This document shows, piece by piece, positions 1 through 17,597 of a stretch of DNA of 48,459 nucleotides. The DNA lies in assembly GCF_017104565.1 (NCBI RefSeq), contig NZ_JAAGPD010000070.1, forward strand, positions 1-48,459, read 5' to 3'. The notes beneath the pieces are model-generated. The model was not told the DNA's origin. It saw only the letters and a list, made by a program, of their open reading frames with translations, and did not search any database. Position 1 is the first letter of the stretch, and every line of letters starts with the position of its first letter. Position numbers and translations under genes: made by a program. The stretch is from Paraburkholderia sp. Tr-20389 (GTDB taxonomy: Bacteria; Pseudomonadota; Gammaproteobacteria; Burkholderiales; Burkholderiaceae).

Positions 1-1
1 T

Positions 2-175
2 GGCGGTGCCGGCGGTGCAGTCGCGGTGACGACGGGCGCATTCGACATGTCCAACAACATGGCGAGCGCAGCACAGTCGGCGGCCGGCATTATGGTTCTG
101 AACCAGAACAGCGGCATGGCGTCGATGGTGCAGCAGGCTGTCACAGTGCAGGCGAACCTGGCTGTCGGCCGCTAA
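2..175 (+). CDS. C-terminal end of a secreted Gln/Asn/Ala-rich protein (Fap-like locus), 5' truncated by window
   Basis: The frame is open from base 2 to a TAA at 173-175, giving the last 57 residues of a protein whose start lies outside the window. The piece is rich in Gly, Ala, Asn, Gln, Ser and Met and has no Cys. It ends in a segment, QNSG-x4-VQQAVTV, that matches the same-register C-terminal signature of the two other putative substrates of this locus (QN[ST]-x5-[IV]Q-x2-[TV]). Low-complexity Gln/Asn composition next to a periplasmic C39 peptidase suggests a secreted, possibly amyloid-forming, structural protein like FapB or FapC. That is inference from context; the truncated piece alone would not identify the family. 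Confidence 0.6.
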   Translation, partial: GGAGGAVAVTTGAFDMSNNMASAAQSAAGIMVLNQNSGMASMVQQAVTVQANLAVGR

Positions 176-219
176 CCGGTCTGAAGGACGGTAAGCGTCG
201 ACAAGTCGTTGTGTGATGT

Positions 220-245
220 GCCGTGGGGCGTTCGCGCTCCACGGC
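220..245 (+). terminator. Hairpin between the truncated gene and the next CDS
   Basis: GCCGTGG (220-226) pairs with CCACGGC (239-245), with further GCG/CGC pairing inside. Only a weak U-rich tail (ttctgttcc) follows. It may be a partial terminator, attenuator or mRNA-stabilising stem that sets different levels of the flanking substrate genes. The rest of 176-376 shows nothing else I recognise. Confidence 0.3.
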
Positions 246-376
246 TTCTGTTCCATCGTCAGGCGCACGGGGTAGCCGCGCCGGGCGACGGTCGCACAAG
301 TCTTACTTCGCCGCGCACCGCTGCGCGTGCCGCAAGGCCGTTGCAGCACGGACGGGCGAAGCACCAGGAGACAACC

Positions 377-829
377 ATGCAGGCGTTCAAACGCATTGCG
401 ATGTGGGTACTGCCTGTCGCCATTGGATTGCCGGGCCTCGCAGCCCATGTCGTTGCCGGCGAACTGCGTTCTCCCGTGCAGGCGGATACGTCGATCGCTG
501 TTGTTGCACCCGCTGCGCAAGCGAGCGCGGACAAGACGGGGACGGCCGCCGCATCGACTGCACCGGCGAGTGCAGCCGACGCGACTTTCGGCGTCGCGAT
601 GACGGCCGAGCAGCTCGATGCGCATCGCGGCGGCGAGCAGGTCTTCAACGACATGAACCTGCGCGGCACGGTCGCGAACAATACCGCGCGTGGCGTCGAC
701 ACCGGCTCGAACATGATCACGGGCGGCTCGTTCTCGAGTTCGAGCGGCTTGCCCACCGTGATACAGAACACGGGCGCGAATGTGCTGATCCAGAACGCGA
801 CGATCGTCAATGTTCGCTTCGGGGAATGA
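377..829 (+). CDS. Secreted 150-aa protein with double-glycine motif (candidate C39 substrate)
   Basis: The start is ATG 377, 7 nt after GGAG; longer in-frame extensions upstream lack a signal peptide. Residues 1-28 form a signal peptide (basic start, hydrophobic core, AHVVAG end). Residues 29-74 are an Ala/Ser/Thr-rich pro-like segment. MTAEQLDAHRGG (75-86) then closely resembles a double-glycine leader end (acidic/Leu helix followed by GG). The remaining 64 residues are Asn/Gly/Ser-rich and end in VIQNT-x2-N-x2-IQ-x2-T-x2-N (128-145). It lies 3 nt upstream of the C39 peptidase gene, so the two are almost certainly co-transcribed and coupled. I infer export to the periplasm by Sec, cleavage after Gly86 by the neighbouring peptidase, and a role as a structural or nucleator protein of a surface fibre. 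No database family can be assigned. Confidence 0.75.
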   Translation: MQAFKRIAMWVLPVAIGLPGLAAHVVAGELRSPVQADTSIAVVAPAAQASADKTGTAAASTAPASAADATFGVAMTAEQLDAHRGGEQVFNDMNLRGTVANNTARGVDTGSNMITGGSFSSSSGLPTVIQNTGANVLIQNATIVNVRFGE

Positions 830-832
830 GCG

Positions 833-1522
833 ATGAAACTCCACAGAGCCGTGTGGCTTCTGGCGTGCGCGCTGACGGCGGCAGGCGCGGCGCGCGCCGA
901 CCCCATCACGATCTACGAGCCGTCGGGCGCGGGTTACGCGATGCACGTGACGAGCCTGAAAGAGGCTCGCTTCAAGCGGACCATCAAGCAGCAGTTCGAC
1001 TTCAGCTGCGGGTCCGCGGCCGTGGCGACGCTGCTCACGTATCAGTACAACTATCCCGTGAACGAACAGACGGCATTCCAGGAGATGTACGAGAACGGCG
1101 ATCAGGCGAAGATCCGCACCGAGGGTTTTTCGCTGCTCGATATCAAGCGTTTTCTGGAGCGTCGCGGCTTCATCGCGGACGGCTATGAGTTGCCGCTGCA
1201 AAAACTCGTCGAAACGAATACGCCCGCCATCGTGCTGATCAGCGAAAGCGGCTATCACCACTTCGTCGTGGTGAAGGGCCTGAAGAATGACCGCGTGCTG
1301 GTCGGCGATCCTGCGACGGGCACGCGGCCCATGCCGTTGAAGAGCTTCGAGGCGAAATGGGAAGACCAGGTCCTGTTCGTCATCCATAACAAACCCGGCG
1401 TCGGGGTCTTCAACGATCCCGTCGACTGGCGGGTAGCGCCCGCTGCGCCGCTCTATACGGGCGTCAATCGCGATGGTCTGTTCTTCACCGTGATGCCCAA
1501 GCACGGCGCGAGTGATTTCTGA
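833..1522 (+). CDS. Periplasmic C39-family cysteine peptidase (FapD-like)
   Basis: A 229-aa protein with a signal peptide (residues 1-22, cleavage near AARA). The papain-like C39 core is visible: oxyanion Gln53, catalytic Cys59 in FSCGSAAVATLL, His143 in YHHFVVVKG and Asp159 in GDPATG. In ABC-type bacteriocin exporters this domain cuts after Gly-Gly in leader peptides and is fused to membrane and ATPase domains. Here it is free-standing and exported, as in FapD of the Pseudomonas functional-amyloid operon. The genes on both sides encode secreted proteins with GG motifs, making them the obvious substrates. Start ATG 833 follows GGGGA and lies 3 nt after the previous stop; the next gene starts 8 nt downstream, so this is a tight operon. 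The fold is confident; the exact in vivo substrates are inferred. Confidence 0.88.
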   Translation: MKLHRAVWLLACALTAAGAARADPITIYEPSGAGYAMHVTSLKEARFKRTIKQQFDFSCGSAAVATLLTYQYNYPVNEQTAFQEMYENGDQAKIRTEGFSLLDIKRFLERRGFIADGYELPLQKLVETNTPAIVLISESGYHHFVVVKGLKNDRVLVGDPATGTRPMPLKSFEAKWEDQVLFVIHNKPGVGVFNDPVDWRVAPAAPLYTGVNRDGLFFTVMPKHGASDF

Positions 1523-1530
1523 GGGCCATC

Positions 1531-3036
1531 ATGAAAACGGAGACCCGAAAAATCGCCGGTATCGCCACGATGTTATGTGGCTCGATGGTGACGTTCGGCG
1601 CGCACGCGTTCGAGCAAAGCGCGCCCGCTGCGGAAGCGGCCAATGCGCCCGATGTCGCGGGCGGGACGATCGAGCCGCTGGTGATGCGCGACACGGCGGC
1701 TTCGATCGAAGTGACGAATGCGCCCGATGCCATCACGCAGGCCGTCGTCGATACGTTGTCGTCGCAGAAGCCGCGTGCGTTTGCGGACGACGCCGACGGC
1801 ATGCATCCCGTTCCCGTGTCGTATGCGGCGCCGATTGCCGTCGTGACGCCGCGCAAGGAGGCCGCCGACGAAGCGGTCGGCGCAGCGCCTGTGGTGCCGG
1901 CCGACATCGCGAGCGATACGGTCATCAACGAAGCGTCGTATGCCGTCGATCCAGCGCCATCGCCTTCGGTTGCATCGCCGCAGGGAAGCGATGTACTCGC
2001 GCAGCGCGATGCCGTCGAACAACGGGACGCAACGACAGTAGAGTCTGTCATCGCGCAGAAGGCCGAGCATGCCGTCAAACCGCTTCCGGTGTCGTATGCG
2101 GCGCCGATCGCGGCTGCGGCGCGCAAAGCCGATCAAGCTGAAAACACCAACAAGGCCGACAAGGTCGACAAGGCCGAACAATCCCCCGCGCCGCGCGAGC
2201 AGCACGAAGAACAGCGCGCGCAGTCGAAACCGATGCAGTCTGAAGCGCTGACTCTCGATGCCACGCCGACACCGCCCCCCGTGTCGCCCGCGCATGCAGA
2301 GCCCGTCGCGAACGAGGCGGAGATCGTCAAGCCGCCCGTTTCGTACGCAAGGCCGATAGCCGTACCTGTCAAACGCGAAGCAAAGGAAGTGGCGAGCGCG
2401 CCAGAGAGAACGCCGCCGCAAACCTCGCCACAAGCCTCATCACGAACATCGCTCAAAGAAGCGCCCGCATCCGTTGCCCGGACGCAAAGCAAAGCGCCCG
2501 TCTCGTATGCGGCACCCATCGCCGTGCCTCAAGTGCCTCAATCTGCGCGCAATGACACGCCCCCCGGCGCCAACCGCGAGTTGAAAGCGCAAGCGAGTGC
2601 CGAAGATCCGAACTGGTCGTCGAAAACGACGGTTGCGCTCAGCGAAGAAAAGCTCGACACGATGCGCGGTGGTTTCGACGTGGCAAACGGTCTCAAAGTC
2701 TCGTTCGGCATTTCGAGGATGGCAGTCGTGAACGGCAATCTCGTCACGCAGACCAGCTTCAACATTCCGGACCTGAGCAACATGACGACCCAGCAGGCGC
2801 AAGCGCTCGCGGCGGCGAACATGGGCTCGCTGCTGCAAAACGGCGGAGGCAACATCGCGCAGCAAGGGTCCGTGCCTGGATTGTCGGGCGCGGTGATCCA
2901 GAACACGCTGAGCAACCAGAACATTCAGACGCTCACGACGATCAATGCAGCCGTCAATTCATTGGGTCTGTTCAAGAACATGAATGTCGGCGCGACCTTG
3001 AACAACGCCTTGATGAATTCAGTCAGGCCGCGATAG
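1531..3036 (+). CDS. Secreted 501-aa protein: long repeat-bearing pro-region, GG motif, Gln/Asn-rich C-terminal domain
   Basis: The signal peptide covers residues 1-26 (AHA end). Residues 27-365 are low-complexity (Ala, Pro, Glu, Lys, Thr), probably disordered, and contain four spaced copies of PVSYAxPIA at about 95, 186, 269 and 323. LSEEKLDTMRGG (370-381) is a near-consensus double-glycine leader end. The 120 residues after it are Asn/Gln/Leu-rich, lack Cys, and end with VIQNT-x2-N-x2-IQ-x2-T-x2-N (455-472), the signature also seen in the 150-aa protein. It is last in the operon, 8 nt after the C39 gene, and is followed by a strong terminator. I infer that the periplasmic C39 enzyme cuts after Gly381, freeing the C-terminal domain for export or fibre assembly. 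The role of the pro-region is unknown; it could anchor, chaperone or hold the mature part. Confidence 0.75.
   Translation: MKTETRKIAGIATMLCGSMVTFGAHAFEQSAPAAEAANAPDVAGGTIEPLVMRDTAASIEVTNAPDAITQAVVDTLSSQKPRAFADDADGMHPVPVSYAAPIAVVTPRKEAADEAVGAAPVVPADIASDTVINEASYAVDPAPSPSVASPQGSDVLAQRDAVEQRDATTVESVIAQKAEHAVKPLPVSYAAPIAAAARKADQAENTNKADKVDKAEQSPAPREQHEEQRAQSKPMQSEALTLDATPTPPPVSPAHAEPVANEAEIVKPPVSYARPIAVPVKREAKEVASAPERTPPQTSPQASSRTSLKEAPASVARTQSKAPVSYAAPIAVPQVPQSARNDTPPGANRELKAQASAEDPNWSSKTTVALSEEKLDTMRGGFDVANGLKVSFGISRMAVVNGNLVTQTSFNIPDLSNMTTQQAQALAAANMGSLLQNGGGNIAQQGSVPGLSGAVIQNTLSNQNIQTLTTINAAVNSLGLFKNMNVGATLNNALMNSVRPR
1813..2526 (+). repeat. Four dispersed copies of a PVSYAxPIA-encoding repeat
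   Basis: Units begin at 1813, 2086, 2335 and 2497, inside the pro-region of the 501-aa protein. Each encodes PVSYA[A/R]PIA with conserved residues but different synonymous codons (for example tat/tac for Tyr, gcg/gca for Ala). That points to selection on the peptide rather than recent DNA duplication. Spacing is irregular (273, 249 and 162 nt). Confidence 0.85.
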
Positions 3037-3051
3037 AAGGCCGAATAAAAA

Positions 3052-3080
3052 GGCTCGCGACGCGTTATGCGTCGCGAGCC
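3052..3080. terminator. Bidirectional Rho-independent terminator
   Basis: A perfect 12-bp stem (3052-3063 with 3069-3080), a 5-nt loop, an A-run before and TTT after. It lies between the + strand operon ending at 3036 and the - strand gene ending at 3114, so it can serve both. Confidence 0.9.
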
Positions 3081-3113
3081 TTTGTTTCGATAGCGGTCTA
3101 AGCAGCAGGCCGC

Positions 3114-4544
3114 TCAGAACTGGATCGGCATGCGGAAGGTCAGCGTGAGATCCGGCGTGTCGCGCGTGAGGCCGGCGCCTAGCGAGAAGTTCAGCGTCGT
3201 CTTCGGTGTGATGCGGTATGAGTAGCCGACCAGCAGCGTGCCCAGTATCACGCGTACCGAGCCTGGCACGCTCTGACCGTTCTGCTTGGTCGGCAGCACG
3301 ATGCTCTGGTCGTAGCCGATGCTGAACGAAGCCTTTTCGTTCAGCGCGAGACCCATGCCGATGTTGAAGCCGTAGATGTCGCCGGGCTGGATGTGGCCGA
3401 CGGGATCCGTCTCTCCGTTGAGGATGTGCAGGCTCAGATCGCTGCGGCCGAAGCTGTGCAGATAGCTGAAGTTGCCGAAGAACACGACGGGGTCGCTCGG
3501 GAACAGCCATGTGAGGCCAGGCTGGATCGCATAGAAGCCCGTGCCCGTCGGCTGTTCGAGCGGCAGGCCCGTGCCCGTCGTATTGCCGATACAGCGCGTC
3601 ACGCAGTCGGTGACCACGTCGAACGGGCTCTTGCCCGTCGCCGTCTTGAAGCGCAGCCAGCCGATGTAATAGAACTTGTCCGGGCCGCCTTCGTTCAACT
3701 GGTAGCGCAACGTCATTTCGACGTCGCCGATGCCGTGGCCGCTGCTGTTGAAGACGTTGTCCTGCGCGGAGCCCGTGAAGATCTCGCGGCTCACCGTGTC
3801 GTTGGTCGAATAGACGTACGGCACGCGCACCTCGAACTCCATCCGGTTGGTGATGCCGTAGCGCGCGGCAAGACCGCCTGTGAGCACATTCGACTTGATC
3901 TCGCGCACATCGATCAAACCGATCAGCAATGCGGGAATGATCGTGTAGCCGACCAGTGCCACGCGGTCGGACGACGAATAGCCGAACTGGAACGACGGCT
4001 CCAGCACGAACTTGTTGCGCGGCGTGAGCACGCCGGGTTGATCGAAGATCGGCGCGACGGCGGGCGGCGCCGTATCGGGGATGGGCGCCTGGCCGACAGG
4101 CTGTGCCGGTTGGGTCTGCTGGTCGCCGCCGTTCTGCGCCATGTTGATCGCGGGCGCAGGCGCTGCACCTGTTGCTGCTCCCGCTGTTGTGCCTGCGCCT
4201 GTGCTGGGCGCCGCGCCCGTGTTGTCGCCGGCACCGGCGTTTTGCGCGATGCCCGTGGCGGCCGCCGCACCCGCGCCCGCGCCGGGCTGGCCTGCTCCGC
4301 GGCTTGCGTCCAGCATGCGTGAATCAAGTGCTTTGCTTAATTGCTGGAATTGCGCTTCTTCTTCGGCGAGTTTCTGTTTGAGTGCTTCGAGTTCCTTTAT
4401 ACGGTTGTTCAGTTCCTGGCGAAGGGTTGCGATATTTTCCTGTGCGGTTTGATCGTTCAGCGACTGCGCATGCGCTTCAACGTAAAAGAGAAGCATCGTC
4501 GCGTAACTGATCGTCCGCACATGTCGAAATGGCTCGCGCTTCAT
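3114..4544 (-). CDS. Outer-membrane coiled-coil/beta-barrel export protein (FapF-like)
   Basis: The chosen start is the ATG at 4544, preceded by GGAGA at about 8 nt; it gives a 476-aa protein with a clean signal peptide (residues 1-26, EAHA end). Residues about 30-75 form a heptad-rich coiled coil (LRQELNNRIKELEALKQKLA). Residues about 82-165 are a Gly/Ala/Pro/Gln linker. From about 175 to the end the sequence alternates polar and aromatic residues as in an outer-membrane barrel and ends in Phe. This order (signal, N-terminal coiled coil, linker, barrel) is that of FapF, which exports amyloid subunits across the outer membrane. It is transcribed convergently to the peptidase/substrate operon instead of being its last gene. 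Other PF13557-like barrel families are the alternative identity. Confidence 0.72.
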   Translation of the reverse strand: MKREPFRHVRTISYATMLLFYVEAHAQSLNDQTAQENIATLRQELNNRIKELEALKQKLAEEEAQFQQLSKALDSRMLDASRGAGQPGAGAGAAAATGIAQNAGAGDNTGAAPSTGAGTTAGAATGAAPAPAINMAQNGGDQQTQPAQPVGQAPIPDTAPPAVAPIFDQPGVLTPRNKFVLEPSFQFGYSSSDRVALVGYTIIPALLIGLIDVREIKSNVLTGGLAARYGITNRMEFEVRVPYVYSTNDTVSREIFTGSAQDNVFNSSGHGIGDVEMTLRYQLNEGGPDKFYYIGWLRFKTATGKSPFDVVTDCVTRCIGNTTGTGLPLEQPTGTGFYAIQPGLTWLFPSDPVVFFGNFSYLHSFGRSDLSLHILNGETDPVGHIQPGDIYGFNIGMGLALNEKASFSIGYDQSIVLPTKQNGQSVPGSVRVILGTLLVGYSYRITPKTTLNFSLGAGLTRDTPDLTLTFRMPIQF

Positions 4545-5064
4545 GGGTCTGTTCTCCATGTCAGGCTTGCAGGTTCTACCCCGGTACACCTAGACAACAG
4601 GCCAGCGGCATCGACATGTCCAGTCGTTGTGCTGGGCATGAAGTATTCCCTCGTTAGGCTCCATTAACGCGACTTGGGCGTATCTCCATGCTTGCGAATG
4701 TCATCGGTATTGAAACCGTGAGTCGCTATTGGTGTGCAATTCGAACTTGTCTCCATGCATCCGCAATAAAGCCTTTAAAGATGATCGTCTTTTGCCTTAA
4801 TTCCGGACCATAAAAGCCTAACGCATCAGGGGTGCATCCGCTAATAAGAAGAACCCTGGCCTGTGATCGTTAGCCAACAGAACGAAGCGTTTTTATGGAT
4901 CCTCCAAGTCCGTTGCTGCGCCATCCGCCGTTTGCGCCGACACGCTTCTGTCATGGCCGCGAGCAAGCATGTCCGATGTGCGCGTGCACAATCCGTTTCG
5001 GCTCAACGGGTGCATAATGCGCTTCAGTCGATGCAGCCGATTGTCGCCCCACGCGGAGGACGTC
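4545..5064. other. 520-bp divergent intergenic region
   Basis: It separates the FapF-like gene (-) and the glutamate dehydrogenase gene (+) and must hold both promoters. The stretch 4600-4870 is visibly more AT-rich than its surroundings. I see no convincing -35/-10 pair, operator palindrome, small ORF or RNA gene. Confidence 0.5.
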
Positions 5065-8000
5065 ATGCAAGCGAAAAACGAAGAAGCCATTGCTCATCTG
5101 CTCAACGATGTCGTCGAATTCGCGCGAGGACGATTGCCCGAGCCCGCATTCGCAGCCGTCGAACCTCTCCTGCGCCACTACTACGATTTCGCCGACGCGG
5201 ACGACCTGCAAAGCCGCGGCATCGCCGACCTTTACGGCGCCGCGATGGCGCACTGGCAAACGGCGCAGCGCTTCGTGCCGGGCAGCGAGCGGTTGCGCGT
5301 CTACAACCCCATTCTCGAACAGCACGGCTGGCATTCCGATCACACCGTCATCGAGATCGTCAACGACGACATGCCGTTTCTGGTGGACTCGGTTGCGATG
5401 GCCGTGAACCGTCAGGGGCTCGCGCTGCATTCCGTGCTGCATCCCGTGTTTCGCATCTGGCGCGGCAAGGACGGCGGCATCGAACGCATCGCACCCGGCG
5501 GCGCATCGAGCGATGACGGCCAGTCGCAGCTCGCGTCGTTCATCCATTTCGAAGTGGACCGTTGCGGCGACGCGGCGAAGCTCGATGCATTGCGCAACGA
5601 GATCGCGAAGGTGCTCGGCGACGTGCGCGCGGCCGTCGAGGACTGGCCGAAGATCGTCGACATCGCGCGTACGACGATCCGCGACATGGCCGCGCGCGAG
5701 ACCAGTCCGGAAGGCGTCGAAGCGCGTGCGTTCCTCGAATGGATGGTCGCGGACCACTTCACGTTCCTCGGCCAGCGCGATTACGAACTCGTCACGCATG
5801 ACGGCCAGTATGGTTTTCGCGGCCTCGCCGGCTCGGGTCTGGGCATCCTGCGCGAGACGTTGCGGCCGCAGGGCGCGTCGGAGGTGACGCCGCTGCCGCC
5901 CGCCGCTGCCGATATCATCGCGGGTGCCGCCCCCATCTTTCTGACCAAGGCCAATTCGCGCGCAACCGTGCATCGCCCCGGCTATCTCGACTATGTCGGC
6001 GTGAAGCTGGTCGGGCCGGACGGCAAGATCAGCGGCGAGCGGCGTTTTATCGGGCTGTATACATCGACGGCCTATACGGCGTCGGCGTCGGAGATTCCGA
6101 TCGTGCGCCGCAAGTGCGCGAACATCGTGCGGCGCGCGGGCTTTCTGCCTAAAGGACATCTCGGCAAATCGCTGGTGACGGTACTGGAAACGTATCCACG
6201 CGACGAACTGTTCCAGGCCGACGAGAACGAACTCTACGACACGGCCATGGGCGTGCTGCGTCTCCAGGAGCATCAGCGCACGCGCATGTTCCTGCGGCGC
6301 GACCGCTTCGACCGCTTCGTGTCGTGCCTCGTGTTCGTGCCGCGCGAGAAGTACAACACGGACTTGCGCCGGCGCATCGCGAAGCTGCTGATGAGCGCGT
6401 TCAACGGCACGAACGTGGAATTCACCCCGCTGCTGTCCGAGTCGACGCTCGCGCGCATTCACTTCGTCGTGCATGCGGAGCCCGGTGCGATGCCGGATGT
6501 CGACACGCGCGAACTCGAAGCGCGGCTGATCCAGGTGTCGCGCCGCTGGCAGGACGATCTCGCCGACGCGTTGCTCGACGCATTCGGCGAAGAGCAGGGC
6601 AACCGTCTGTTGCAGCACTATGCGGATTCGTTTCCGGCAGGCTATCGCGACGACTATCCGGCACGCACGGCTGTGCGCGACATCGAACTGATCGAGCGCG
6701 TGCAGGGCACCGGGCACATCGCAATGAATCTGTACCGTCCGATCGAAGCCGGTCCGCGCGCGTTCCGCTTCAAGGTGTATCGCGTGGGGGAGCCGATTGC
6801 GCTGTCGCGCAGCCTGCCGATGCTCGAGCATCTCGGCGTGCGCGTCGACGAAGAGCGGCCTTATCTGATCGAAACGCCGGGCGCCGCCGCCGCATGGATC
6901 CACGATTTCGGCCTCGAACTCGCCGACGATACCGAGTTCGACATCGAGCGCGTGAAGGATCTGTTCGAAGACGCGTTTGACCGCGTGTGGACGGGCGATA
7001 TCGAAGACGACAACTTCAATCGTCTCGTACTGCGCGCGCAACTGAGCGCACGTGAAGTGACGATACTGCGTGCATATGCGAAGTATCTGCGCCAGGTCGG
7101 CTCGACGTTCAGCGATGCGTACATCGAACGCGCGCTGACGGGCAATCCCGCCATCGCGCGCATGCTCGTCGAACTGTTCGTCGCGCGCTCCGATCCGGCG
7201 CCTGCCACCTCGCGCGACACACGCGTCGAGCGGCTATTGAAGACGATCGAAAGCGCGCTCGACGAAGTGCCCAATCTCGACGAGGACCGCATCCTGCGCC
7301 AGTTCCTCGGCGTGATCAACGCGACGCAGCGCACCAACTACTACCGCCGCGAAGCGAACGGCAAACCGCGGCCTTATCTGTCGTTCAAGTTCGATCCCGC
7401 GAAAGTGCCGGGCTTGCCCGAGCCGAAACCGATGTTCGAAATCTGGGTGTACTCGCCGCGTGTGGAAGGCGTGCATCTGCGCGGCGGGCGCGTCGCGCGC
7501 GGCGGCTTGCGCTGGTCCGACCGTCGCGAGGATTTCCGCACGGAAGTCCTCGGCCTGATGAAGGCGCAGATGGTGAAGAACGTGGTGATCGTTCCCGTGG
7601 GATCGAAGGGCGGCTTTGTCGTGAAGAATCCGCCGCCGCCGACCGACCGCGAAGTGTGGATGCGTGAAGGCGTCGCGTGCTATCAGACGTTCCTGCGCGG
7701 GCTGCTCGACCTCACCGACAACCGCGTGGGCGGACAGATCGTGCCGCCGCCCGACGTGGTGCGACACGATCCCGACGATCCCTATCTCGTCGTCGCTGCC
7801 GACAAGGGCACGGCCACCTTCTCCGACTACGCGAACGCGATTTCGCAGGAATACGGCTTCTGGCTCGACGACGCCTTTGCATCGGGCGGTTCGGTCGGCT
7901 ACGACCACAAGAAGATGGGCATCACGGCGCGCGGCGCGTGGGAATCGGTGAAGCGCCATTTCCGCGAAATGGGCGTCGATACGCAGACGACGGACTTCAC

Positions 8001-9921
8001 CGTGGTCGGCGTCGGCGACATGTCGGGTGACGTGTTCGGCAACGGCATGCTGCTGTCGCAACACATTCGCCTCATCGCCGCGTTCGATCACCGTCACGTG
8101 TTTCTCGACCCGAACCCCGATCCATCGACGAGTTTCGCCGAGCGTCAGCGGCTCTTCAATCTGGACCGTTCGAGCTGGGCCGACTACGATCCCGCGCTGA
8201 TCTCGGCGGGCGGCGGCGTGTTCGCGCGCACGGCGAAGACGATTCCGCTTTCGCAGGCGGTGCAGTCGATGCTCGGCATCAACGCTGTCGCGTTGTCGCC
8301 CGCCGAACTGGTGCGCGCGATCTTGCAGGCGCCCGTGGACTTGCTCTACAACGGCGGTATCGGCACTTATGTGAAGGCGAGCCGCGAGACGCATGCGCAG
8401 GTCGGCGACAAGACGAACGACGCCGTGCGCGTGAACGGCTGCGATCTGCGCTGCAAGGTGGTCGCGGAAGGCGGCAATCTCGGCTTCACGCAACACGGGC
8501 GTATCGAGTTCGCGCAGCACGGCGGCCGCATGAATACGGATGCGATCGACAATTCGGCGGGCGTCGATTGCTCGGATCACGAAGTCAACATCAAGATTCT
8601 GCTCGGCCTCGTGGTCGCGGACGGCGAGATGACGGAGAAGCAGCGCAACGCGTTGCTCGCCGAAATGACGGAGGAAGTGGGTCTGCTCGTGCTGCAGGAC
8701 AACTACTATCAGACCCAGGCGCTGTCGATTGCAGGCCGCTATGCAGCCGAACTGTTCGACGCCGAGATGCGCATGATGCGCTATCTCGAACGCGCGGGCC
8801 GTTTGAATCGCGTGATCGAGTTCCTGCCTCCCGAAGACGAAATCAATGAACGGCTCGCCGCGAAGCAGGGTTTGACGTCACCCGAGCGTGCGGTATTGCT
8901 CGCGTACAGCAAGATGTGGCTTTACGACGCGCTGCTCGAATCCGACGTGCCGGAAGACACGCTGGTTGCGGGCATGCTGACCGAATACTTCCCGAAGCCG
9001 CTGCGCCAGCGCTTCAACGAGCCCATGCATCGTCATCCGCTGCGCCGCGAAATTCTGGCCACACACCTGACGAACGCGCTCGTGAATCGTGTCGGCTGCG
9101 CGTTCGTGCACAGCATGATGGAAGAGACGGACGCGAAGCCGGGCGACATCGTGCGCGCATGCATCATCGCGCGCGACGTGTTCGATCTGAACGACGTGTG
9201 GCGCAATATCGACGCGCTCGACAATCGCGTCGCCGACGACGTGCAGGCGCGCATGTTCGTCGAAATCACGAAGCTGCTGGAGCGCGCCGCGTTGTGGTTC
9301 CTGCGTCATCTGCAGTCGGGCGAAGTGACGAACGGCGGCGTGACGGCCTTGATCGCGCGGTGCCGCGATGCCGCGCAACGGCTTGCGCCGCAATTGCCGA
9401 TGCTGTTGCCCGCCGCGGAACTCGAAGCGCTGTCGGAGCGGCAGCGCGTGCTCGTCGATGCGGGTGTCGACAGCGAGCTTGCGGTGCGCGTGGCGAGCGG
9501 CGACATCCCGGCCGCGCTGCTCGATATCGCGGATGTGTCGGCGACGACGGACCGCAGTCTCGAACTCGTCGCGGGCGTGTACTTCGCGTTGAGCACGCAA
9601 CTGAACTATGGGTGGATCGGCGAACGCGCGGCGTCGCTCCCGACGTCGACGCATTGGGACGTGATGGCGCGTGCCGCCGCGCTCGCCGAGCTTGCGCGAC
9701 TCAAGCGCGTGCTGACGACGAGCGCCCTCGCGGAAGCGCCCGAGGCGATGACGGCGGAGGGCGTCGTCGAAGCATGGCGGGCGAAACGAGAGGACGCGCT
9801 CACGCGTTATGCGCAACTGCTGACGGATCTGCGCGCGGCGGGCGGCGCGAGTCTGTCGATGCTGCTCGTGATCGTGCGGGAAATGTCGACGCTCGAACGC
9901 CGTCCGGTGTCGGCGAGCTAG
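5065..9921 (+). CDS. gdhB: NAD-specific glutamate dehydrogenase, large (about 180 kDa) type
   Basis: It oxidatively deaminates glutamate to 2-oxoglutarate and ammonia with NAD, in the cytoplasm, mainly for growth on amino acids. The protein is 1618 aa, the usual size of the large bacterial GDH family (about 1600). The N-terminal half is the regulatory ACT-like region (PFLVDSVAM near residue 110). The catalytic core carries the Lys-rich glycine loop MVKNVVIVPVGSKGG (about 838-852) and ADKGTATFSDYANAI (about 912). The nucleotide-binding turn VGVGDMSGDVFG follows near 982. The start is ATG 5065, five nt after GGAGG; an upstream in-frame extension has no such site. It is a single-gene unit followed by a hairpin terminator. 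Confidence 0.95.
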   Translation: MQAKNEEAIAHLLNDVVEFARGRLPEPAFAAVEPLLRHYYDFADADDLQSRGIADLYGAAMAHWQTAQRFVPGSERLRVYNPILEQHGWHSDHTVIEIVNDDMPFLVDSVAMAVNRQGLALHSVLHPVFRIWRGKDGGIERIAPGGASSDDGQSQLASFIHFEVDRCGDAAKLDALRNEIAKVLGDVRAAVEDWPKIVDIARTTIRDMAARETSPEGVEARAFLEWMVADHFTFLGQRDYELVTHDGQYGFRGLAGSGLGILRETLRPQGASEVTPLPPAAADIIAGAAPIFLTKANSRATVHRPGYLDYVGVKLVGPDGKISGERRFIGLYTSTAYTASASEIPIVRRKCANIVRRAGFLPKGHLGKSLVTVLETYPRDELFQADENELYDTAMGVLRLQEHQRTRMFLRRDRFDRFVSCLVFVPREKYNTDLRRRIAKLLMSAFNGTNVEFTPLLSESTLARIHFVVHAEPGAMPDVDTRELEARLIQVSRRWQDDLADALLDAFGEEQGNRLLQHYADSFPAGYRDDYPARTAVRDIELIERVQGTGHIAMNLYRPIEAGPRAFRFKVYRVGEPIALSRSLPMLEHLGVRVDEERPYLIETPGAAAAWIHDFGLELADDTEFDIERVKDLFEDAFDRVWTGDIEDDNFNRLVLRAQLSAREVTILRAYAKYLRQVGSTFSDAYIERALTGNPAIARMLVELFVARSDPAPATSRDTRVERLLKTIESALDEVPNLDEDRILRQFLGVINATQRTNYYRREANGKPRPYLSFKFDPAKVPGLPEPKPMFEIWVYSPRVEGVHLRGGRVARGGLRWSDRREDFRTEVLGLMKAQMVKNVVIVPVGSKGGFVVKNPPPPTDREVWMREGVACYQTFLRGLLDLTDNRVGGQIVPPPDVVRHDPDDPYLVVAADKGTATFSDYANAISQEYGFWLDDAFASGGSVGYDHKKMGITARGAWESVKRHFREMGVDTQTTDFTVVGVGDMSGDVFGNGMLLSQHIRLIAAFDHRHVFLDPNPDPSTSFAERQRLFNLDRSSWADYDPALISAGGGVFARTAKTIPLSQAVQSMLGINAVALSPAELVRAILQAPVDLLYNGGIGTYVKASRETHAQVGDKTNDAVRVNGCDLRCKVVAEGGNLGFTQHGRIEFAQHGGRMNTDAIDNSAGVDCSDHEVNIKILLGLVVADGEMTEKQRNALLAEMTEEVGLLVLQDNYYQTQALSIAGRYAAELFDAEMRMMRYLERAGRLNRVIEFLPPEDEINERLAAKQGLTSPERAVLLAYSKMWLYDALLESDVPEDTLVAGMLTEYFPKPLRQRFNEPMHRHPLRREILATHLTNALVNRVGCAFVHSMMEETDAKPGDIVRACIIARDVFDLNDVWRNIDALDNRVADDVQARMFVEITKLLERAALWFLRHLQSGEVTNGGVTALIARCRDAAQRLAPQLPMLLPAAELEALSERQRVLVDAGVDSELAVRVASGDIPAALLDIADVSATTDRSLELVAGVYFALSTQLNYGWIGERAASLPTSTHWDVMARAAALAELARLKRVLTTSALAEAPEAMTAEGVVEAWRAKREDALTRYAQLLTDLRAAGGASLSMLLVIVREMSTLERRPVSAS

Positions 9922-9945
9922 CCTGCGTGCGATCTTCGATACCAC

Positions 9946-9972
9946 GCGCCGTCGTCGCGAAGATGACGGCGC
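9946..9972 (+). terminator. Rho-independent terminator after the glutamate dehydrogenase gene
   Basis: GCGCCGTC (9946-9953) pairs with GACGGCGC (9965-9972) across an 11-nt loop, followed by ATTTTTCTTT. Confidence 0.85.
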
Positions 9973-10056
9973 ATTTTTCTTTGCACGGACCGATTCGACG
10001 GTGTGGCAGCGGATTGCCGGATAATAGCCGGATCGACCCACCGTCATTTCATCATC

Positions 10057-11118
10057 ATGAACGAACCTGCTGTCAGTTCCAACGTTCCTCGCCTCACGAG
10101 TCTGTCGCACGGCGGCGGCTGCGGCTGCAAGATCGCGCCGGGCGTGTTGTCCGATCTGCTGAAGCGCAACCTGCCGATGCCGTCGTTTCCCGATCTGCTG
10201 GTCGGCACGGAAACGTCGGACGATGCCGCCGTATATCGCCTCAATGACGAGCAGGCGATCATCGCAACGACCGACTTCTTCATGCCGATCGTCGACGATC
10301 CCTACGACTTCGGCCGTATCGCCGCGACCAACGCGCTCTCCGATGTTTACGCGATGGGCGGCAAGCCGATTCTCGCGCTTGCGCTGGTGGGCATGCCGAT
10401 CAACGTGCTGCCGCACGATGTGATCGCGGCCGTGCTGCGCGGCGGCGAGGATGTCTGCACACAGGCGGGCATTCCCGTCGCAGGCGGCCATTCGATCGAT
10501 TCGGTGGAGCCGATCTACGGCCTCGCCGCGCTCGGTGTCGTGCATCCGAAGCGTGTGAAGCGCAATGCGTCGGCGCAGGCGGGCGATGTGCTCGTGCTCG
10601 GCAAGCCGCTCGGCGTCGGCGTGCTGTCGGCGGCGCTCAAGAAAAACCAGCTCGATGAAGCGGGTTACGCCGCGATGATCGCCGCGACGACCAAGCTCAA
10701 CCGTCCGGGCACGGAACTGGCCGCGCTCGACGGCGTGCACGCGATGACGGACGTGACGGGCTTCGGCCTGCTCGGCCACACGCTGGAACTCGCACGCGGC
10801 GCGCAATTGACCGCACGCGTGCGATACGCGGATCTTCCGTGGATTGCAGGCGCCGAGGCATTCGCGGCAGCGGGCACATTCACGGGTGCGTCTGGGCGCA
10901 ACTGGGCGTCGTATGGCGAAGACGTGCTTCTCGCCGATGCCCTGCCCGATACCGCACGCACGTTGCTGACCGATCCGCAGACTTCGGGCGGGCTGCTCGT
11001 GTCGTGCGCGCCGTCAGCCGCCGACGACGTGCTCGCAATCTTCCGCGCCGACGGCTTCGACCACGCAGTGGTGATCGGCGAACTGCACGACGGCGCGCCG
11101 CGTGTCGAAGTGGTGTGA
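10057..11118 (+). CDS. selD: Selenide, water dikinase (selenophosphate synthetase)
   Basis: It makes selenophosphate from selenide and ATP, the selenium donor for selenocysteine or for 2-selenouridine in tRNA. The 353-aa length is normal. The catalytic N-terminal motif GGGCGCKI has Cys22 and Lys25 (the E. coli Cys17/Lys20 equivalents), so this is the Cys and not the selenocysteine form. ATP-binding AIR-synthase features follow: TDFFMPIVDDPYDFGRIAATNALSD is split across about 70-95, and DVTGFGLLGH lies near 230. ATG 10057 was preferred over a GTG at 10003 because homology begins close to it, although no strong Shine-Dalgarno is visible. No selA, selB or selU lies in the window. Confidence 0.95.
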   Translation: MNEPAVSSNVPRLTSLSHGGGCGCKIAPGVLSDLLKRNLPMPSFPDLLVGTETSDDAAVYRLNDEQAIIATTDFFMPIVDDPYDFGRIAATNALSDVYAMGGKPILALALVGMPINVLPHDVIAAVLRGGEDVCTQAGIPVAGGHSIDSVEPIYGLAALGVVHPKRVKRNASAQAGDVLVLGKPLGVGVLSAALKKNQLDEAGYAAMIAATTKLNRPGTELAALDGVHAMTDVTGFGLLGHTLELARGAQLTARVRYADLPWIAGAEAFAAAGTFTGASGRNWASYGEDVLLADALPDTARTLLTDPQTSGGLLVSCAPSAADDVLAIFRADGFDHAVVIGELHDGAPRVEVV

Positions 11119-11176
11119 TCGTTCATCCATCCATTCGCATCACAACGCATCGCAATACGACCAACCACAAGAGCCA

Positions 11177-12103
11177 ATGAAAGAAGAATCACCGAAGGCC
11201 ATTTTTTACGCGCTGGCGGCGAACGCGGGCATCGCCGTCTGCAAGTTCGCGGCAGCGGCGTTCACGGGTTCCGGCTCGATGTTCGCCGAGGCGATTCACT
11301 CGACAGCCGATTGCGGCAATCAGGTCTTGCTGCTGTTCGGACTGAAACAGGCACGCCGGCCCGCGAGCCTGCTGCATCCGCTCGGCGCGGGGCGCGTGAT
11401 CTATTTCTATTCGCTGATCGTCGCGCTGCTGCTGTTTTTCGTGGGCGGCGTGTTTTCGGTGTATGAGGGCATTCATCGTCTGATGGCGCACGAGCCCTTG
11501 TCGCACGCGTATATCGCGCTGGGCGTGCTGGGTGTATCGGTCGTGCTCGAAACGTTCTCGCTGATGGGGGCGATCCGCGAAATACGCAAGACTAATCCCG
11601 ACAAATCGATGTGGCGATGGTTTCGCGAGACGCGTGAATCCGAATTGCTCGTCGTGACAGGCGAAGACGTGGCCGCGCTGCTCGGCCTTGCGATGGCCTT
11701 CGTCGCCGTGCTGATGACGATGATCACGGGCAATCCGATGTACGACGCGTGCGGTTCCATCGGCGTCGGTGTGTTGCTGATGGTGATTGCGTTTTTGGTG
11801 GCGCGCGAAGTGAAGTCGATGATCATCGGCGAATCGGCAAGCCCGGAAGTGCGGCGTGCGATCGAAGCGCATCTGCGCACGCGCAAGGAAATCCGCAGCA
11901 TCATCAATCTGATCACGCTGCAATGGGGACGCCATGTGGTCGTCGCGGTGCAGGCGGAAATGATCGACTATGAAAGCGGCCGCGCGATGGTCGATGCGAT
12001 CAATATCGTCGAGGCGGATTTGCAGGAGAAGTTTCCGCAAGTGCGCTGGGTGTTTTTCGAGCCGGACGTGCCGAGAGTGAGAACCGAGGCTTCGCTGGAT
12101 TGA
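11177..12103 (+). CDS. Cation diffusion facilitator family transporter
   Basis: A 308-aa inner-membrane protein with about six hydrophobic helices, probably exporting a divalent metal (Zn, Fe, Mn or Co) in exchange for protons. The TM2 metal site HSTAD (near residue 41) and the TM5-type acidic motif GEDVAALLG (near 161) are present. A cytoplasmic C-terminal domain (about 215-300) follows, as in CDF proteins. The EDxAALLG form places it nearer the SLC30A9-like branch than FieF/ZitB. It starts 58 nt after selD and may be co-transcribed with it. The metal cannot be told from sequence. A strong terminator lies just downstream. Confidence 0.88.
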   Translation: MKEESPKAIFYALAANAGIAVCKFAAAAFTGSGSMFAEAIHSTADCGNQVLLLFGLKQARRPASLLHPLGAGRVIYFYSLIVALLLFFVGGVFSVYEGIHRLMAHEPLSHAYIALGVLGVSVVLETFSLMGAIREIRKTNPDKSMWRWFRETRESELLVVTGEDVAALLGLAMAFVAVLMTMITGNPMYDACGSIGVGVLLMVIAFLVAREVKSMIIGESASPEVRRAIEAHLRTRKEIRSIINLITLQWGRHVVVAVQAEMIDYESGRAMVDAINIVEADLQEKFPQVRWVFFEPDVPRVRTEASLD

Positions 12104-12122
12104 TCTTCCGTGCGCGGAACTG

Positions 12123-12161
12123 GACCCGCGAATGGTGCAAATGATGCATCGTTCGCGGGTC
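12123..12161 (+). terminator. Rho-independent terminator after the CDF gene
   Basis: GACCCGCGAA (12123-12132) pairs with TTCGCGGGTC (12152-12161), with a 19-nt loop, followed by TTTTCGTTTTT. Confidence 0.85.
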
Positions 12162-12251
12162 TTTTCGTTTTTGCATCTACCTTTTCGCCTTGCTGTTTTG
12201 CACTCGATTTATGCGAATCAGCTAATCGTATCGGCAAGTGGAATTAGCCAA

Positions 12252-12279
12252 TGGAAAACAATTCGATGCCACCTATACT
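12252..12279 (+). promoter_or_regulatory. Possible sigma-70 promoter of the nucleoside permease gene
   Basis: TGGAAA (12252-12257, 4/6 to TTGACA), a 16-nt spacer and TATACT (12274-12279, 5/6 to TATAAT), about 73 bp upstream of the start codon. The flanks are AT-rich compared with the genes. Confidence 0.35.
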
Positions 12280-12352
12280 AAGCTCCGCCCTGTTACGCGA
12301 GGGCATGCATTCCAGTTCCAATCTTTTAACGCGCTTAAAGAAAGGACTTGTC

Positions 12353-13420
12353 ATGGTAACTCGCACGGTAGGCGCATTGACGGCTCTGGCATTGGCCGCA
12401 TGCACGGCCGTTTCGCCGCTGGCCAATGCGCAGGACGATGGTTTCGCGCAAGACAGTGGCGAATCGCATGGCCGTTCTGTCAAGGTGATGATCATTTCGA
12501 TGTTCGGACCGGAAGGGCAGGTGTGGCTCAATAAACTCGGGCCGTGGCAGGACATTCCCGTCGCAGGGCTGTCGCCCGATTATCCGAACATTCATTGCAA
12601 CAAGCAGGACGTCTGCGTGATGACGACGGGCATGGGACACAGCAATGCCGCCGCATCGACGATGGCGCTCGCGTTCTCGTCACGTTTCGATTTGCGCCAC
12701 ACCTATTTCATGGTGGCGGGCATCGCGGGCATCGATCCGATTCAAGGCACGGTGGGCTCGGCAGCATGGGCCAAATACCTCGTTGACTTCGGCATTCAGT
12801 GGGAAATCGATGGACGCGAAATTCCCGCTGGCTGGACTACGGGCTATCTGGGCATCAATACGAAAAGCCCCACGGAAAAGCCGCCGCTCGATTACCGCAC
12901 CGAAGTCTTCCAGCTGAATACGCGTCTCGCGAATACGGCTTTCGCGTTGTCGCGCAACGTGGTGCTGGCGGACAACGCGGATGCGCAAGCGGCGCGCGCC
13001 AAATACAGCTATGCGCCTGCCAATCGTCCGCCGACTGTCATTCAATGCGACACGCTGGCGGGCGATACGTGGTGGTCCGGCACCAAGCTCGGCGAACGCG
13101 CGCGCGACTGGACGAAGATTCTGACGGACGGCAAGGGCGTCTATTGCACGACGCAACAGGAAGACAATTCGACCTATGAAGCATTGAAGCGCGCGGCGAG
13201 TGTGCATCGTGTCGATTTGAATCGTGTGGCCGTGTTGCGCGCGGGTTCAGATTTCGATCGTCCTTATGATGGACAGACGAGCGCGGACAACCTGCTCAAT
13301 TATGCCGCTCAAGGCGGCTTCACGATCGCGCTGGAGAATCTGTACCGTGCGGGCAATCCGCTGGTTCAGGACATCGTTACGCATTGGGGCGAATGGCGCA
13401 ACGGCGTGCCGCAGCGTTGA
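12353..13420 (+). CDS. Purine nucleoside permease (NUP) family protein, exported
   Basis: A 355-aa protein starting at ATG 12353, preceded by AAAGGA. The N-terminus is a signal sequence ending either at ANA (residues 24-26) or at a lipobox-like LAAC, so it may be a free periplasmic protein or a lipoprotein. The body matches the NUP family first described as a nucleoside permease in Candida (SVKVMIISMF, TTGMGHSNAA, TYFMVAGIAGIDP). The fold resembles nucleoside phosphorylases, and in bacteria such proteins are exported, so binding or cleavage of nucleosides in the periplasm is more likely than transport. It is a single-gene unit with its own terminator. The family is confident, the biochemical role is not. 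Confidence 0.85.
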   Translation: MVTRTVGALTALALAACTAVSPLANAQDDGFAQDSGESHGRSVKVMIISMFGPEGQVWLNKLGPWQDIPVAGLSPDYPNIHCNKQDVCVMTTGMGHSNAAASTMALAFSSRFDLRHTYFMVAGIAGIDPIQGTVGSAAWAKYLVDFGIQWEIDGREIPAGWTTGYLGINTKSPTEKPPLDYRTEVFQLNTRLANTAFALSRNVVLADNADAQAARAKYSYAPANRPPTVIQCDTLAGDTWWSGTKLGERARDWTKILTDGKGVYCTTQQEDNSTYEALKRAASVHRVDLNRVAVLRAGSDFDRPYDGQTSADNLLNYAAQGGFTIALENLYRAGNPLVQDIVTHWGEWRNGVPQR

Positions 13421-13439
13421 CGTCGTATCGTTAGTAACG

Positions 13440-13476
13440 CAAAGCGCTCAATCGCTTTATGCGGTTGAGCGCTTTG
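13440..13476. terminator. Bidirectional terminator between the NUP gene and the DUF4148 unit
   Basis: A perfect 12-bp stem, CAAAGCGCTCAA (13440-13451) with TTGAGCGCTTTG (13465-13476), and a 13-nt loop; a short U-rich tail (tcttt) follows on the + strand. Confidence 0.85.
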
Positions 13477-13494
13477 TCTTTCAATGAACGCTTC

Positions 13495-13527
13495 AGCTTG
13501 ATGCGAGCTTGATGCGAGCTTAATGCG
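13495..13527. repeat. Three tandem copies of an 11-bp unit
   Basis: AGCTTGATGCG at 13495 and 13506, and AGCTTAATGCG at 13517. The single G-to-A change in the last copy creates the TAA stop (on the - strand) of the 22-codon ORF. Confidence 0.9.
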
Positions 13528-13588
13528 AACGATATGGCGTCCAGACGGGAACGTCCGAACCCCAGTCGTCGAGTTCCGATGGGCTCAT
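13520..13588 (-). CDS. Candidate 22-aa small protein
   Basis: The ORF runs from ATG at 13588 to TAA at 13520 and encodes MSPSELDDWGSDVPVWTPYR plus SH. An excellent Shine-Dalgarno, GAAGGAG, ends 6 nt before the ATG, which is the main reason to believe it is translated. It lies 32 nt downstream of the DUF4148 gene on the same strand, so the two may share an mRNA. The peptide is acidic and aromatic (two Trp, one Tyr), with no signal peptide or membrane segment. Function is unknown. Confidence 0.5.
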   Translation of the reverse strand: MSPSELDDWGSDVPVWTPYRSH

Positions 13589-13620
13589 GTTCGACTCCTT
13601 CGATAAGAACGAAAACACGT

Positions 13621-13932
13621 TTATTGACTGCGTGCGACGCGCACGTTGCCGTCGCCGCTTTGCTTGTCGAGGCGTTCGGCTTGCGTGCGGCCAATCAGGC
13701 CTTGTTCCGGGTATGAAGTCTTGTTCAGCGAAGGCAGCGTGCCGTCGCGATAGGCATCGGCGACTTCGGCACGCACTTCTGCGCGCGTCTTCGGCGCGGA
13801 TGCGCTAGTCGAGTGTTGCCACCATTGATCGTTGTACGATCCGGCGCGGCCGATGCCACCGCCGCCGCCGGCAAACGCCGGTGCGCTGACGAGCAACGAG
13901 AGAACGAGACCTGCCAGCAGATTGCGCTTCAT
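13621..13932 (-). CDS. DUF4148 domain-containing exported protein
   Basis: A 103-aa protein with a clear signal peptide (MKRNLLAGLVLSLLVSAPAFA, cut after residue 21), then a Gly run and the DUF4148 pattern KTRAEVRAEVADAYRDGTLPSLN...YP. This family is abundant in Burkholderiaceae, periplasmic, and of unknown function; paralogues are often induced by stress or host conditions. The start is preceded by AGGAG. It is apparently the first gene of a short - strand unit with the 22-codon ORF. Confidence 0.9.
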   Translation of the reverse strand: MKRNLLAGLVLSLLVSAPAFAGGGGGIGRAGSYNDQWWQHSTSASAPKTRAEVRAEVADAYRDGTLPSLNKTSYPEQGLIGRTQAERLDKQSGDGNVRVARSQ

Positions 13933-14060
13933 GATTCACTCCTGTCGATTCAGATTCGTTTGCAGTGCCGTCGTGGTGCGGCGCTGCGACAGGGTGAAAT
14001 GTAGGCTTTGACGTGCGGGCGATAAACCCGACTTTCGTGAAATGAATTGTCGCAATTTCA

Positions 14061-14094
14061 GAACAATCGCGGCGCGGTGCCTCCGCGATTGTTC
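14061..14094 (-). terminator. Hairpin terminator after the LysR gene
   Basis: A perfect 12-bp stem, GAACAATCGCGG (14061-14072) with CCGCGATTGTTC (14083-14094), and a 10-nt loop. It is positioned 33 bp downstream of the LysR stop on the - strand; the U-run there is weak. The rest of 13933-14126 should hold the DUF4148 promoter, of which I see no clear elements. Confidence 0.65.
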
Positions 14095-14126
14095 ATTTGC
14101 CTAAAGCCCTTGCGAGCGATGTGGCA

Positions 14127-15131: not shown

Positions 15132-15171
15132 TGCAAACCTCCGAATGAGCCGGAGCACTTTGAAGCATCCG

Positions 15172-15197
15172 CTTTAGCCCGCTAAGCCCGGCTAAAG
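15172..15197. promoter_or_regulatory. Dyad in the ceoR-llpE divergent region, candidate LysR-binding site
   Basis: CTTTAGCC (15172-15179) and GGCTAAAG (15190-15197) form a perfect 8-bp inverted repeat with a 10-nt gap, 41-66 bp upstream of the LysR start. LysR proteins bind interrupted dyads of the T-N11-A type in such positions. Confidence 0.45.
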
Positions 15198-15326
15198 GCG
15201 TCGAATAAAGGCATTCGATTGTTCAGGTGCACCGAATTGTGTTGCCGGATTATAGGCATTTATTTGGAAGTCTGCTGACGCCACAATTCGCACCATTCGA
15301 TAGCTTCGCGCATTGCGCTGTTCGAC

Positions 15327-16181: not shown

Positions 16182-16216
16182 ACAAACTTCTATTAACTAA
16201 ATTTCCGGAGTCTGAC

Positions 16217-17524: not shown

Positions 17525-17597
17525 TCGGTCGACCGACACACACGATCCTTCGATGCATGCGCACGAGACGTAAGCGCTCCAACATCAAGAGCTTCAC

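Follow-up and report, generated by a model that had tools for sequence, protein, structure and literature searches.

We analysed the locus at the beginning of a 48,459-nucleotide stretch of DNA from Paraburkholderia sp. Tr-20389 (contig NZ_JAAGPD010000070.1; this whole stretch is called the window), which a sequence-only reading had likened to the Fap functional-amyloid system. The gene order given there, namely a substrate, a substrate with a GG motif, a C39 peptidase, a second GG substrate and a convergent barrel gene, is present in the window sequence (Table 1). The first substrate gene does encode a Gly-rich secreted protein, but only a fragment of it is there as the contig begins inside the gene. 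P0001, P0002, P0003 and P0004 all have the signal-peptide-like N-termini claimed for them (by inspection for P0002), the two GG motifs could be located in P0002 and P0003, and the predicted coiled coil plus barrel was recognised in P0004 as a heptad-like N-terminus (by inspection) followed by a C-terminal barrel matching FapF.

Table 1. Features of the locus in window coordinates (DG, double-glycine)
Feature	Position	Strand	Remarks
Gly-rich secreted protein, C-terminal 57 codons and stop; candidate major subunit	2..175	+	truncated by contig start
P0002 (E2 family), 150 amino acids, secreted	377..829	+	variable spacer, DG site, 64-residue C-terminal domain
DG-type C39 site MTAEQLDAHRGG in P0002, residues 75-86	599..634	+	GG at 85-86
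P0001, periplasmic C39 cysteine peptidase, FapD homologue, 229 amino acids	833..1522	+	Pfam, NCBIfam, catalytic residues
P0003 (E3 family), 501 amino acids, secreted	1531..3036	+	long spacer, DG site, 120-residue conserved C-terminal domain; fapE position
DG-type C39 site LSEEKLDTMRGG in P0003, residues 370-381	2638..2673	+	GG at 380-381
P0004, FapF-type outer-membrane barrel, 476 amino acids	3117..4544	-	signal-peptide-like N-terminus, heptad-like stretch, linker; stop codon 3114-3116
DG-like site LDSRMLDASRGA in P0004, residues 73-84, where heptad-like stretch ends	4293..4328	-	

P0001 matched Pfam Peptidase_C39 (E-value, E, 1.8e-21), peptidase domains being its only Pfam matches, and Pfam gave no fused ATP-binding cassette (ABC) transporter domain, so the protein is free-standing. 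As had been predicted, it is a homologue of FapD, which was its top NCBIfam model (E 2.2e-40); the score of 138 bits lies under the cut-off of 330, as does that of a canonical Paraburkholderia FapD (207 bits). The catalytic residues Q53, C59, H143 and D159 had been named correctly and are shared by all 138 aligned peptidases. P0004 matched the NCBIfam FapF model (E 4.3e-41) with 141 bits against a cut-off of 700, where a canonical Paraburkholderia FapF scored 358 bits. Its residues 161–476 aligned to the FapF crystal construct (E 7.3e-29), the best PDB match, and a profile of 37 P0004 homologues compared with 5o67 (E 2.5e-39) followed the barrel as far as its end and took in a PTG motif. The barrel is thus a FapF relative, as the sequence-only reading had proposed.

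For the distribution of the locus, 369 genomes of the class were scanned with the FapD model, and 45 matched with an E of at most 1e-15. Fifty-eight places were listed; 40 were fetched, two others lie in the window's own genome and 16 further ones were left out. A FapF-type barrel was found at 39 of the 40 peptidase loci, which we sorted by content into group A (canonical Fap, 15 loci), group B (window-like, 14) and group C (11; Fil-like loci together with L125, which has a broken peptidase frame). From a protein search of named genomes we took the best 80 of 159 relatives, whose loci came from Paraburkholderia, Burkholderia, Trinickia, Cupriavidus, Ralstonia, Pandoraea, Massilia, Pseudoduganella, Dyella, Luteibacter, Frateuria, Rhodanobacter and unclassified relatives. 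In these loci, fetched by peptidase similarity, the profiles for the peptidase, the barrel, the P0003 domain and the P0002 domain matched in 80 of 80 and that for the Gly-rich C-terminal repeat in 79, so the expected co-occurrence in related genomes was observed. Some open reading frames (ORFs) were matched by more than one of the profiles for P0003, P0002 and the Gly-rich repeat, and gene positions were therefore checked separately.

The window, 20 genus relatives, the group B loci and the named loci were pooled to give 115 loci with 111 distinct peptidases (L041/L136, L047/L138 and L053/L145 are duplicates; L156/L162 have identical peptidases). The order P0002–C39–P0003–barrel was present in 113 of the 115, with a Gly-rich-type ORF called upstream in 98 of these. 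In every pooled locus the next system gene downstream of the peptidase was P0003, and the barrel also lay downstream of it (115/115). The opposite orientation of the barrel gene, which had been pointed out for the window, is true there, but across the pool it held for 53 loci, with 62 having the barrel on the same strand; orientation varies between lineages and therefore has little weight as a distinguishing feature. A sigma-54 promoter search upstream of window-type genes showed no excess (1/86, 0/100 and 0/100; shuffles 0.65, 0.85 and 0.55).

Outside the pool, homologues of the peptidase, P0002, P0003 and the barrel were found in Photobacterium, with the barrel upstream and on the other strand, and in the alphaproteobacterium Croceicoccus marinus, where RefSeq labels the neighbour genes 'hypothetical protein' and 'transporter'. 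In Indioceanicola profundi the peptidase is present, P0002 and P0003 matched less strongly, and the stretch fetched contains no barrel. A converse search of 299 genomes with the P0003 domain gave nine loci in eight genomes (three already in the set), each with an adjacent peptidase gene. Genus-wide, among the matches listed, the window-type peptidase (66–100% identity) was present in at least 30 of 145 genomes, and many other genomes had only a more distant type at ∼32–37% identity. The PLSDB records at the Cupriavidus metallidurans and C. campinensis loci list no genes; the PLSDB records L221 and L225 (Aeromonas caviae and Acinetobacter baumannii) are labelled as plasmids and, at 4.1–4.9 Mb, are chromosome-like in size.

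Maximum-likelihood trees were calculated from 66 rows chosen from the loci, with a long-branch warning for the Fil rows in the barrel tree. The window type and group B formed a single clade (99/99 in the peptidase tree, 100/99 in the barrel tree), canonical Fap was separate (99/92 and 99/96, respectively), and the main clades were common to both trees. The root is arbitrary and the Fil rows are long-branched, so that the trees support the clades and not an order among them. As the peptidase and the barrel both stay under their NCBIfam cut-offs and belong to a separate clade, the locus appears to lie outside canonical Fap.

The same data bear on whether P0004 might be a small-molecule porin, unrelated to protein export and next to secreted proteins by happenstance. 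FapF resembles the COG4313 uptake channels (PMC6173800), and a canonical FapF weakly matches Phenol_MetA_deg. We nevertheless regard such a role as extremely improbable, given the constant place of the barrel gene downstream of the peptidase in the pool (upstream in Photobacterium), the main clades shared by the peptidase and barrel trees, and FapF as the best PDB match. The barrel is thus a homologue of FapF and not a member of an unrelated porin family, the C39 protein has FapD as its best model, and the genes occur together in related genomes.

P0002 and P0003 gave no Pfam match and no match to the NCBIfam FapA, FapB, FapC or FapE models (E up to 1). Both contain a site in which, with GG numbered −2/−1, there is a hydrophobic residue at −12, L at −7, R at −3 and G at −2 and −1. 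The same layout is found in the double-glycine leaders recognised by C39 peptidases, which have GG or GA at the cut site. RGG was present at the site in all 115 P0003 homologues and, when peptidases were clustered at 70% identity, in 23 of 23 clusters; L−7, R−3, G−2 and G−1 were invariant in a 31-row alignment. The P0002 family was detected by profile in 113 loci (the group B assignments were made by profile, part of them checked by eye), with GG at −2/−1 in 102 of the 113 and GR, AK, GT, GM, AM or GQ in nine others. The remaining two, L118 and L206, had no site in the position-restricted scan, although a broader count showed TGG in L206.

In that position-restricted scan, which covered 10 residues round the profile position with GG preferred and so narrows the lengths obtained, the part after the site measured 63–69 residues in the 111 P0002 homologues with a site; the part before it varied widely, in values that include untrimmed ORF starts. 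The broader count, over all matched ORFs, gave 63–104 residues after the P0002 site and missed the site in 14 of 131 P0003 and 31 of 128 P0002 ORFs, many of which were second or non-family ORFs, or SGG/TGG forms. The strict pattern [LVIM]x4Lx3RGG occurred 34 times in 32,123 residues of system proteins and seven times in 83,903 residues of other genes, as called by a simple caller in L007 and L008 (own genome), L038–L065 (28 relative loci) and window 1–20000. All seven background copies belong to one protein family, in canonical fap loci. The pattern is thus confined to system proteins save for one family, and the RGG sites are therefore not chance.

Profile comparison without the site related the P0003 domain to the P0002 domain at 77.7% probability. 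The spacer of P0003 holds four copies of VSYAxPIA, at residues 96, 187, 270 and 324 (window 1816-2523, residues 96-331), and the length of P0003 differs strongly among relatives.

Relatives of the window hold two tandem Gly-rich proteins of ∼410 residues (in the relative L040, 9544-10770 and 8297-9523, both on the minus strand), and contig C27 of the window's genome has a piece matching residues 1–278 of one Gly-rich copy. The two L040 proteins had no Pfam match and no NCBIfam FapA, FapB, FapC or FapE match (E up to 0.1). Together with the results for P0002 and P0003, this agrees with the earlier remark that the substrates do not look like classical FapB/FapC. The FapA model matched none of the four window proteins and neither of the Gly-rich proteins in L040; fapA is described as absent in 6 of 16 Fap genera (PMC3792158).

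The Gly-rich C-terminal repeats, the P0002 domain and the group B repeats were related by profile comparison, with probabilities of 98.8, 98.6 and 96.6%. Group B repeats aligned in register with canonical FapB/FapC repeats (hhalign 80.6%, reversed control 0.1%), the choice of both sets by similar motifs making a match more likely. In 3 of 15 group A loci the P0002 profile also picked up ORFs with FapB-like repeats, each repeat matching weakly. A distant tie of the window-system repeats to Fap repeats is likely from these comparisons.

The start of the window contig falls within the Gly-rich repeat gene, and the canonical fap locus of the same genome is split between the end of contig C38 and the end of C80 (L007, L008); tandem near-repeats may have broken the assembly. 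Upstream of the L040 locus (12353-16000) are a carboxypeptidase-like gene and an ABC cassette on the other strand that, by inspection, resembles a phosphonate importer, and clusters of carboxypeptidase-like and ABC-cassette genes recur in many genus relatives.

Peptide exporters typically have C39 peptidases and GG leaders, and two longer ORFs with C39-like matches lie elsewhere in the genome. On that model the GG proteins would be toxic peptides cut by the C39 protein during bacteriocin or microcin export. This is very unlikely: the peptidase is free-standing and has a signal-peptide-like N-terminus, no ABC-type ORF was evident in window 1–9000, the importer-like cassette of L040 is on the opposite strand and further upstream, and the domains that follow the site are related to repeats of the fibre type.

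The genome of the window has a second peptidase (34% identity, on C38) and a second barrel (31%, on C80), which belong to the canonical fap locus that is split between these contigs. Relative G078 has its counterpart in complete form (L058), where FapB, FapC, FapD, FapE and FapF were the best NCBIfam models, all under curated cut-offs, and FapA was the best model for an own-genome gene in L007. As the L058 and L007 genes are best named by Fap models, the genome carries canonical Fap alongside the window locus.

In group A, 14 of 14 ORFs called between fapD and fapF carried [LVI][STP]xxx[LM]xxxRG[KR][FY] in the same register (LTDGELSGMRGRF, LSESRLSNIRGKY; shuffle mean 0.004), L106 being the locus of the 15 where no FapE-position ORF was called. 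Eight of eight Paraburkholderia canonical FapE proteins carried V[DG]DxxLxxQ[TS]GK. The FapE-position protein of Aeromonas caviae, a species named as Fap-bearing (PMC3792158), has LADGELAHLRGRY. A variant of the site was thus present in every canonical FapE examined (22/22, and the one from A. caviae).

In the work of Rouse et al. 2017 (PMC5557850), the active-site Cys of FapD was required for FapC secretion, only FapE had no mass spectrometry peptides in its first ∼70 residues, and the FapF linker was likewise without peptides. The same authors describe the Fap proteins as lacking canonical C39 sequences and call the FapD target unclear, while favouring FapE. In canonical FapE the site fits a trimming of that protein, the link to that experiment being one of family.

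Two observations concern the peptidases and the canonical loci. Residues 97, 116, 119, 138, 173 and 198 of P0001 (window 833-1522) are mostly acidic in window-type peptidases and not in canonical FapD, and D116 is R in 21 of 23 canonical FapD; these positions might be related to the preference for GG or G[KR] sites. A short secreted protein that has an LWDE motif close to its end, and a DG-type site of its own, LDDQxLSxQRGG, stands at the start of the fap locus (L058:9949-10428, minus strand; L007:2935-3525, own genome, contig C38). All 8 canonical Paraburkholderia loci have such a protein, and similar ones were noted in 5 of the 15 loci of group A and in 2 of the 14 of group B. The one tested had no Pfam or NCBIfam family, and it is possible that the protein is an unnamed Fap accessory.

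If the RGG motif were structural, the C39 protein would cut some other target or act as a chaperone. Some C39-like domains are purely chaperones (PMC6173800), our case for cleavage in the window system is built from sequence, and canonical FapE has G[KR] or [TS]GK. Against this, the catalytic residues are identical in all aligned peptidases, the motif turns up, spaced as in a leader, in several distinct families of proteins encoded at these loci, and FapC secretion is lost when the FapD Cys is mutated (PMC5557850). We consider a purely structural motif improbable.

A somewhat less improbable alternative, though still an unlikely one, is that the locus is a divergent canonical Fap operon making a FapC-type amyloid. 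The FapD and FapF homology would agree with this, as would the likeness of the group B repeats to canonical Fap repeats (subject to the choice of sets noted above), the weak reach of the P0002 profile into group A and the FapE-like site in the fapE-position protein. It is opposed by the lack of any FapA, FapB, FapC or FapE model match, by the separate clade in both trees, by the canonical fap locus in the same genome and by the P0003-domain profile, which matched none of 23 canonical loci.

The barrel protein has a site of its own. Where its heptad-like stretch ends there is a sequence resembling the DG leader (LDSRMLDASRGA in the window, IGTEVLAAKRGG in Cupriavidus, VGLDSLDASRGG in Luteibacter). 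RG[GAST] was found there in 83 and RG[GA] in 63 of the 115 barrels (shuffle means 0.41 and 0.34), and L78 and R82 were conserved at 90% or above among 37 aligned homologues. A cut at this position would detach the coiled coil, which is close to a speculation of Rouse et al. on FapF (PMC5557850).

From the homology, gene order, conserved sites and clade structure we observed, we think it likely that the window locus is a second, non-canonical Fap-type export system in which the C39 peptidase cuts minor subunits at GG for the export of a surface fibre. Sec would export all components, as their signal-peptide-like N-termini suggest, and the FapF-like barrel, by its homology, would be the outer-membrane pore for the Gly-rich repeat proteins. 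The latter may build a surface fibre, to judge from their repeats and family. P0002 and P0003 are probably minor subunits, counterparts of FapB (nucleator) and FapE (export/anchor), and their precursors would consist of a signal peptide, a variable spacer, a double-glycine-type leader and a C-terminal domain whose length hardly varies. In the periplasm the C39 peptidase would recognise the leader and cut after GG, freeing the C-terminal domain; site conservation, the identical catalytic residues and the published FapD data all point this way. In many Burkholderiaceae and Rhodanobacteraceae the peptidase may also cut the barrel protein where its coiled coil and linker meet. That this cleavage gates the pore is a speculative step, confined to those lineages.

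Several results weigh against this account. Cleavage, its timing, pore gating and the fibre and amyloid nature of the product are predicted here from sequence. The site is less strict in P0002, with xGG in 12 of 23 peptidase clusters (the protein being present in 21), and canonical FapE has GK, GR or [TS]GK in place of GG. The P0003 domain compared with canonical FapE at 17% by hhalign with the site and 2% without it, not significant beyond the site, and the FapE identity of P0003 therefore rests on position and site. Direct comparison with canonical repeats was weak (P0002 18.8%, Gly-rich end 29.0%). The barrel site is lineage-restricted: it occurred in 8 of 23 peptidase clusters and, by a loose pattern, in 1 of 14 group B loci. 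The strict patterns RG[GAST] and RG[GA] matched none of 23 canonical barrels, and the loose pattern matched two of them, both elsewhere in the protein. Finally, of 10 Fil-type loci one (L133) had a GG-type match in an ORF that encodes a signal peptide and lies close to the peptidase gene, and a few had looser matches. No GG-type match was listed for the locus of Acinetobacter baumannii. Fil-type loci are thus mostly without such sites, and the peptidase and barrel can therefore pair without one.

On balance we lean, with less assurance than for the window locus itself, towards a wider proposal: FapD-family peptidases would recognise a double-glycine-type leader in periplasmic Sec-exported precursors (RGG here; RG[KR] or [TS]GK in canonical FapE) and in several lineages would also cut their own pore between coiled coil and barrel. 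If true, the leader variant in canonical FapE would give this suspected substrate an exact cut site, and proteolysis would be a gate for fibre secretion. With a near-invariant leader-like site in two partners, where FapD cuts would become a single-residue question. The export system is widespread, and its secreted proteins have no Pfam or NCBIfam match. A literature search, with most subscription journals and supplements outside its coverage, found no paper naming a FapD-type cut site or this system.

Fil-type loci (filB/filC homologues) have a homologous peptidase and barrel: P0001 matched the FilB model at E 1.4e-33 and P0004 the FilC model at E 1e-13, both scoring below FapD and FapF. However, the Fil rows fall outside the window clade in both trees (99/99 and 100/99). 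C39-containing ABC exporters (bacteriocin or type 1 secretion systems) share the C39 domain and the double-glycine leader layout of the window sites. In contrast to these, the window peptidase has a signal peptide and is free-standing rather than fused to an ABC transporter, and the window leader lies inside Sec-exported proteins, after a spacer. Fap (fapABCDEF) is alike in its signal-peptide C39 peptidase and coiled-coil/barrel pore, in a minor protein encoded directly after the peptidase gene, in repeat proteins upstream and in the DG-type site of the fapE-position protein. The window system differs in having no FapA, FapB, FapC or FapE by model and Gly-rich major proteins, in a GG site rather than the G[KR] of FapE, in carrying this site also in the P0002-type protein and many barrels, and in its separate clade with a barrel gene often on the opposite strand. 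The window locus would work like Fap and, by the tests run, lies outside canonical Fap.

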